From assembly GCA_040754075.1 (NCBI GenBank), contig JBFMDH010000038.1:1-64000 (forward strand): a DNA stretch of 64,000 bases, given 5' to 3'. Below are positions 14,621-15,514 of the stretch, in pieces (position 1 is the stretch's first letter; each line of letters opens with the position of its first letter). The translations under genes and the position numbers were made by a program. The DNA comes from Acidobacteriota bacterium (GTDB lineage Bacteria > Acidobacteriota > Blastocatellia > UBA7656). The notes beneath the pieces are model-generated. The model saw nothing but the letters and a program-made list of their open reading frames with translations. It did not search any database and had not been told where the DNA came from.

Positions 14621-15007
14621 TTAAAAATTGTCAATCGCTACAGGTTTATCTTCCTTGATTTCATCTTCGTAAAAGAATGCCGGACCGCAGGCGACCAATA
14701 ATCTGATGGGTTCATCGCCGATATTTTTCAACCTGTGTCTTGCCCCGCGCGGAACATAAATCGCATCGCCCGCGCCGACTTCCCTTTCTTCATCGCCCAC
14801 CGTCATCAAGCCTTTGCCTTCGATGAGGTAATAAATTTCTTCGAGTTCGCGATGGTGATGCGCAGTGACGGCAGCGCCCGGCGGCAATAGCTCTTCGGCA
14901 AGACTGCACTGCGTAATCGTTGAAGTCGTGCGGTCAATGAGCGGGCGAAGCGCGCTGCCATGCGCGGTTTCAATGATGCGAGCCTGATTGCGATTGACGA
15001 TTATCAT
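14621..15007 (-). CDS. Cupin domain protein
   Basis: A single-domain cupin of about 128 residues. Motif 1 reads TAHHHRELEEIYYLIEGKG, with the metal-binding histidines and glutamate. Motif 2 is GDAIYVPRGARHRLKNIGD, with the last histidine ligand. Such small cupins are metal-dependent isomerases, dioxygenases or sugar-binding regulators; nothing here fixes which. The frame also allows an ATG at 15028; the ATG at 15007 gives the usual MIIVN-type start, but no Shine-Dalgarno decides between them. It may be transcribed with the rhodanese gene, which ends 54 nt upstream on the same strand. Confidence 0.8.
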   Translation of the reverse strand: MIIVNRNQARIIETAHGSALRPLIDRTTSTITQCSLAEELLPPGAAVTAHHHRELEEIYYLIEGKGLMTVGDEEREVGAGDAIYVPRGARHRLKNIGDEPIRLLVACGPAFFYEDEIKEDKPVAIDNF

Positions 15008-15061
15008 CTTTGGTGAAAGGTATGGCATCGTTCAACGAAGAAGCAACGATGCGATTTTGGT

Positions 15062-15514
15062 TTACTGTTTTTGTTCGGTAGCGCCGGCGGCTTGTAACCA
15101 CGCCGCCCAACCGCCTTTTAAGGCTTTGACATTTTTATAACCGAGTTGAAGGAGTTTAATCGCCGCACCGGCGCTGGTGTGTTCGCTCGGTCAGGCGCAA
15201 TAGAGAATGACCTGTTTGTTGCGCGGAATCTCCTTCAAGTGGGCTTCGACCTGGTCATAAGGAATTTGCAAGGCGCCGCGAATTTTATCGCTGTAGGTAT
15301 CAAGCGCCCGCACATCGATAACCACAAACGCGCCTTTCTTTTTCGCCATCAATAAAATCAATTCATCAACCGAAATGCGCGGCACCGCTTCGGGGGCAAT
15401 TTCTTTGGTGGCTTGGGCTGTCGCAGAAGTTAAGGCTTTCGTTGCTTTGGAATGGGCAAAACCGGCGCTGCTGATCAATAACAGCAGCGACAAAAGCCAG
15501 ACAAATTTTTTCAT
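15062..15514 (-). CDS. Exported rhodanese with in-frame TGA at the loop cysteine (candidate selenoprotein)
   Basis: Read with TGA as an amino acid, this is a 150-residue rhodanese. It has a signal peptide (MKKFVWLLSLLLLISSAGFA), the domain core (VVIDVRALDTYSDKIRGA), the strand ILYCA, then TGA at codon 108 (15193-15191). The frame then continues perfectly: PSEHTSAGAA, a conserved helix, GGWAAW, and a TAA at 15062-15064. In cysteine homologues I know, the motif is YCxCPNExTSA, so TGA stands where the active-site loop cysteine should be, giving CysAlaSec. About 40 downstream codons are intact with no frameshift, which argues against simple decay. A SECIS-like hairpin lies at the expected distance. 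The alternative is a recent nonsense mutation. GGAG lies 13 nt before the start. Confidence 0.72.
15161..15173 (-). promoter_or_regulatory. possible bacterial SECIS hairpin
   Basis: Downstream of the TGA on the minus strand, CGCC (nt 18-21 after TGA) pairs with GGCG (nt 27-30), leaving the loop GGTGC (nt 22-26). Bacterial SECIS elements lie in the coding sequence with the apical loop about 16-37 nt after UGA and a G among the first two loop bases; this fits. The stem is only 4 bp, and a competing CACC/GGTG pairing exists (nt 12-15 with 22-25), so support is modest. Confidence 0.4.

Follow-up and report, generated by a model that had tools for sequence, protein, structure and literature searches.

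Results

An exported rhodanese gene is interrupted by a single in-frame TGA

The window, by which we mean the whole 64-kb stretch of DNA that was analyzed, carries on its minus strand a reading frame that runs from 15514 to 15062 and comprises 150 codons followed by TAA (MKKFVWLL...ILYCA-TGA-PSEHTSAGAA...GGWAAW...KQ-TAA). A preliminary description of this DNA had stated that the frame is interrupted only by a TGA at codon 108, and reading 15514 to 15062 on the minus strand bore this out: the TGA at 15193 to 15191 is the single internal stop, with no second one. The same description placed a signal peptide and a rhodanese core before the TGA and a rhodanese C terminus after it. Indeed, the match to the Rhodanese family PF00581 spans the TGA, covering residues 50 to 141 with an E-value of 2.4e-14 and a score of 54 bits (gathering cut-off 22.2). 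The N-terminal signal, judged by eye from the sequence, consists of KK and then a hydrophobic stretch, and the signal peptide (MKKFVWLLSLLLLISSAGFA, then HS) corresponds approximately to positions 15455 to 15514 of the minus strand. The N termini of relatives look like similar signal peptides, often of the lipoprotein type. Among the six rhodanese domains found in the genome, only the window copy contains an internal stop. From the frame and the alignment of homologs, we assign 15062 to 15514 (minus strand) to a predicted selenoprotein gene, encoding an exported rhodanese of 150 residues in which the TGA at codon 108 (15191 to 15193) specifies selenocysteine (Sec).

Directly downstream on the same strand, after a gap of 33 nt, lies a gene for a small cupin protein (14621 to 15028, minus strand). 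Its position after the rhodanese gene is kept in both closest relatives, in which the cupin is 61 to 69% identical. The short gap, the shared strand and the conserved order suggest that the rhodanese and cupin genes form an operon. In the window, as in locus L033, the cupin gene is followed by a convergent CBS-domain gene.

The host genome encodes the selenocysteine machinery

The preliminary description had proposed a search of the genome for selA, selB, selC and selD, and all four were found. In the host genome (7.58 Mb, completeness 100%) we identified SelB (657 aa, 383.5 bits against a cut-off of 242), SelA (566 bits), SelD (353 bits) and a tRNA-Sec that scores 65.5 bits and is called SeC by ARAGORN, with anticodon tca (UCA). 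The SelD gene of this genome (L026, G000:C29:72690-73613) contains an in-frame TGA of its own, within the active-site motif CAGUAAK, and is a second sign, read from sequence, that UGA is decoded as Sec in this host. When the hairpin downstream of the SelD TGA was compared with that of the rhodanese, the register was not shared. TGA terminates 9 of the 30 ORFs of at least 250 aa in the 64-kb window; it thus serves there as an ordinary stop, and the code is not simply reassigned, and we rejected that reading.

Codon 108 is either TGA or a cysteine codon in homologs

The class set comprised 162 genomes, 133 of which had a rhodanese match at E ≤ 1e-10, and from these 118 loci were extracted and the codon aligned. 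Most of the class matches listed at this threshold carry exactly one TGA. The preliminary description had proposed asking whether homologs have Cys or TGA at this site. The codon aligned with position 108 is TGA in 95 of the 118 homologs, TGC in 13 and TGT in 10, that is, Cys in 23, with nothing else. The two nearest relatives, from the same family and 62% and 59% identical, both keep the TGA. Its statement that Cys homologs read YCxCPxExTSA also held, as the same or nearly the same motif was seen in the aligned Cys copies. The list of homologs was ordered by resemblance to the TGA form and its members are related to one another, so that the counts are not independent events and the proportion of TGA is inflated; this ordering is, however, no explanation for the absence of any third residue at position 108.

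On the tree, the copy from the window groups with those of genomes G002 and G007 in a supported clade in which all members have TGA. The tree contains 11 Sec/Cys changes, at least 9 of which are forced by well-supported branches, and includes close Sec/Cys pairs, for example a Cys copy (G100) adjoining a Sec copy (G096). Elsewhere in the phylum, too, there are families with TGA copies, which often lie inside larger frames. No close copy of the rhodanese gene was found on plasmids, and a search of genome contigs for related loci returned only one match, a distant one in Maribacter.

Several genomes of the class contain 2 to 5 rhodanese matches, and TGA-containing rhodanese genes occur in tandem or near tandem (G059:C259 at 20970 and 21505; G032:C66 at 3025 and 3725; G136:C625; G075:C5). 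Two TGA-containing rhodanese domains, both with YCxU or FCxU, are fused to membrane proteins: one to a VTT (DedA-type) domain, PF09335 (L037, G004:C275), and the other to a sodium/hydrogen exchanger, PF00999 (L159, G121:C33).

Only TGA copies conserve a SECIS-like hairpin

Bacterial SECIS elements feature a hairpin just downstream of the UGA whose small apical loop contains G (PMC1088965). The preliminary description reported a hairpin with a GGTGC loop starting 22 nt past the TGA. A hairpin with this loop at +22 is present, as in bacterial SECIS elements, but its stem starts at +18 and not at +22. The SECIS-like hairpin, CGCC-GGUGC-GGCG, thus occupies +18 to +30 after the TGA (15161 to 15173, minus strand), with a 4-bp stem formed by pairing of +18 to +21 with +27 to +30 and the GGUGC loop from +22. 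The next pair outward, +17/+31, is a G-A mismatch in the window copy, and in a 64-nt fold of this copy the hairpin is enclosed by a larger closing stem.

Conservation at third codon positions supports the proposed downstream SECIS. In TGA copies +21 is C in 100%, +24 is U in 97% and +27 is G in 100%; the same letters are found in 22%, 35% and 52% of Cys copies, respectively. The pair +21/+27 is formed in 100% of TGA copies versus 42% expected from synonymous shuffles and the pair +18/+30 in 91% versus 40%, and the latter varies on both sides, being C-G in 67 TGA copies and U-A in 18. Cys copies display little or no pairing excess over the expectation from synonymous shuffles; the NGU loop and the stem are conserved in TGA copies only. 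The complete hairpin pattern is present in 84 of 95 TGA copies and 1 of 23 Cys copies. By chance, it follows 3 of the 2,527 TGA triplets found on both strands and in any frame of the window (0.1%), and among those three only codon 108 has an open frame of at least 80 codons before it and at least 40 after it. As a criterion for SECIS elements, folding energy alone performed poorly, and the per-pair test at synonymous positions was far clearer: the folding energy of the window copy showed no excess over synonymous shuffles (z of +0.25), with mean z values of −0.98 for the TGA set and −0.15 for the Cys set.

Genomes without a detected tRNA-Sec provide a natural control

A tRNA-Sec was detected in 146 of the 162 class genomes. 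Seven genomes at least 90% complete have no detected tRNA-Sec (G050, G051, G079, G095, G097, G098 and G100), and none of the seven contains a TGA copy; in the homologs from G095, G098 and G100 the site is occupied by Cys. Six genomes have a TGA copy yet no tRNA-Sec was found in them. All six are incomplete (62 to 85%), and missing sequence most simply accounts for these cases. G100 and G098 also have weak rhodanese matches that contain a TAG in frame (L166, G100:C52, and L165, G098:C1:504283); these could be copies in decay or the ends of frames.

The predicted structure places Cys106 at the catalytic position

An AlphaFold model of the protein (mean pLDDT of 88) matches solved rhodanese domains, the closest being BH2092, and also GlpE. 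Cys106, encoded at 15197 to 15199 (minus strand), corresponds in the alignment to the rhodanese catalytic Cys (YC...), and the predicted Sec lies two residues on. An alignment of 32 relatives shows no variation at Cys106 and, at position 108, only Cys or Sec. The active-site loop is two residues longer than the classical one (YCaCpsehtSa versus YCR--TGGRSA in the alignment with 3tp9).

Discussion

The evidence argues that UGA108 of this exported rhodanese is, with high probability, a selenocysteine codon. The selenoprotein interpretation put forward in the preliminary description was borne out by the machinery in the genome, by an alignment with only TGA or Cys at the site, by the hairpin and by the tRNA-Sec control, giving Sec insertion as much support as can be had from sequence data. 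The TGA stands exactly where Cys homologs have TGC or TGT, one base away, as would be expected if a recent nonsense mutation (a pseudogene) or a sequencing error had converted a TGY Cys codon to TGA. However, the TGA is kept in the two nearest relatives (62% and 59% identical) and is found in 95 of the 118 homologs, whose frames are otherwise open, the third codon positions downstream of it are under selection, and the Sec machinery is complete in the genome. Because a neutral stop would not stay this conserved and the alternative at the site is always Cys, a nonsense mutation is ruled out; with the conserved TGA, the selection on the hairpin and the Sec machinery, we rejected both a fresh mutation and a sequencing error, the least probable of the readings considered here.

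An open frame is by itself silent on which residue goes in, and UGA108 could instead be read through, or a near-cognate or suppressor tRNA could insert another residue such as Trp or Cys. This is very unlikely, given that Cys is the sole alternative at the site, with no instance of Trp or another residue, that the SECIS-like hairpin is conserved, that TGA copies follow tRNA-Sec in near-complete genomes and that other frames of the window end at TGA in the ordinary way. The UGA might also act as a regulated switch with a 107-residue truncated form as the main product. Recoding of Escherichia coli fdhF is only 30 to 40% efficient (PMC4513850), and a truncated rhodanese product is therefore to be expected. 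Such a form would nevertheless stop midway through the active-site loop and miss the C-terminal part of the fold, and the coding sequence after the TGA, including GGW and the C-terminal helices, is conserved. We consider truncation as the main outcome more improbable still than insertion of another residue.

Under the selenocysteine reading, SelB and tRNA-Sec would decode UGA108 as Sec, guided by the hairpin 18 to 30 nt downstream within the coding sequence, and the resulting active-site loop would be C106-A-U108-P. Without selenium or recoding, translation would end at residue 107, and the 107-residue fragment is probably inactive. Sec coding, the export signal, the rhodanese fold and the placement of Cys106 at the catalytic position, with Sec two residues on, are shown by comparison. 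As to chemistry, Cys106 may take up sulfane sulfur as a persulfide, which the selenolate of Sec108 might then resolve or reduce through a selenenylsulfide. The rhodanese would then act in the periplasm as a redox enzyme for sulfane sulfur or thiols, possibly together with the adjoining cupin. We regard this scheme of a Cys106 persulfide, a Sec108 partner and a periplasmic redox enzyme as plausible but at somewhat less than even odds. More tentative is the broader proposal that CxU rhodaneses could be periplasmic Sec-dependent sulfane-sulfur or thiol redox enzymes and not plain sulfurtransferases, distributed class-wide and in multiple copies, fused to membrane proteins in some species and partnered by a cupin here, with repeated Sec-to-Cys exchange that partly accompanied loss of the Sec machinery.

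Standard annotation would end the rhodanese gene at residue 107, and the NCBI model for this type of protein, discussed below, misses it by 15 bits, so this selenoprotein family, common in the class, may be largely unannotated. That a single site is occupied by Sec in 95 homologs and by Cys in 23, with several closely related pairs, amounts to a clean natural experiment, which should help to work out the benefit that Sec brings to a rhodanese and the reasons for its retention or loss. Judging by sequence and by the genes present, the class is probably Blastocatellia (Acidobacteriota); a limited literature search found no paper naming Blastocatellia together with selenocysteine.

Rhodanese domains with Sec have been listed among selenoproteins previously. 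A CxU form of COG0607 is among predicted selenoproteins (PMC9312934, 2022), and a 2026 review lists the "Rhodanese-like domain-containing protein form 3" (NF041203, motif CxU, example TKB26178.1) as a prokaryotic selenoprotein (PMC13188914). Like NF041203 ("rhodanese_LYCAU," "rhodanese-related (seleno)protein"), the protein described here has a single rhodanese domain with CxU in the active-site loop and contains the LYC-A-U motif, as ILYCAU; NF041203 is also its best NCBIfam match, over residues 31 to 149. Unlike NF041203 members, it scores 100.2 bits, under the curated cut-off of 115, and we therefore treat it as close kin of that family and do not file it as a member. Ten class relatives scored singly gave 75 to 113 bits, also under 115, and a class member from G133 gave 118.5. 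Rhodanese-like selenoprotein forms 1, 2 and 4 (UxxS, UxxG) and TsoB (NF045694, UxxxxU) likewise have a rhodanese domain with Sec (PMC13188914), but in these U comes first in the motif, in contrast to CxU here, and TsoB is a long rhodanese/DsbD-like fusion against which our protein scores only 26.8 bits. With the single-domain thiosulfate sulfurtransferases GlpE and PspE it shares the fold and the position of the catalytic Cys, whereas its loop is longer and has a second redox residue. The closest solved fold, the structural-genomics rhodanese BH2092 from Bacillus halodurans (3nhv/3o3w, 29% identity), has a loop of equal length (YCWGPACNGAT) but a Gly at the +2 position, where our protein has the predicted Sec and some relatives have Cys. 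Judged by these sequence features, the protein belongs to the known CxU rhodanese selenoprotein kind and lies outside the curated NF041203 model as it stands; the apparent novelty lies in the spread of the CxU rhodanese across the class, with repeated Sec/Cys exchange.
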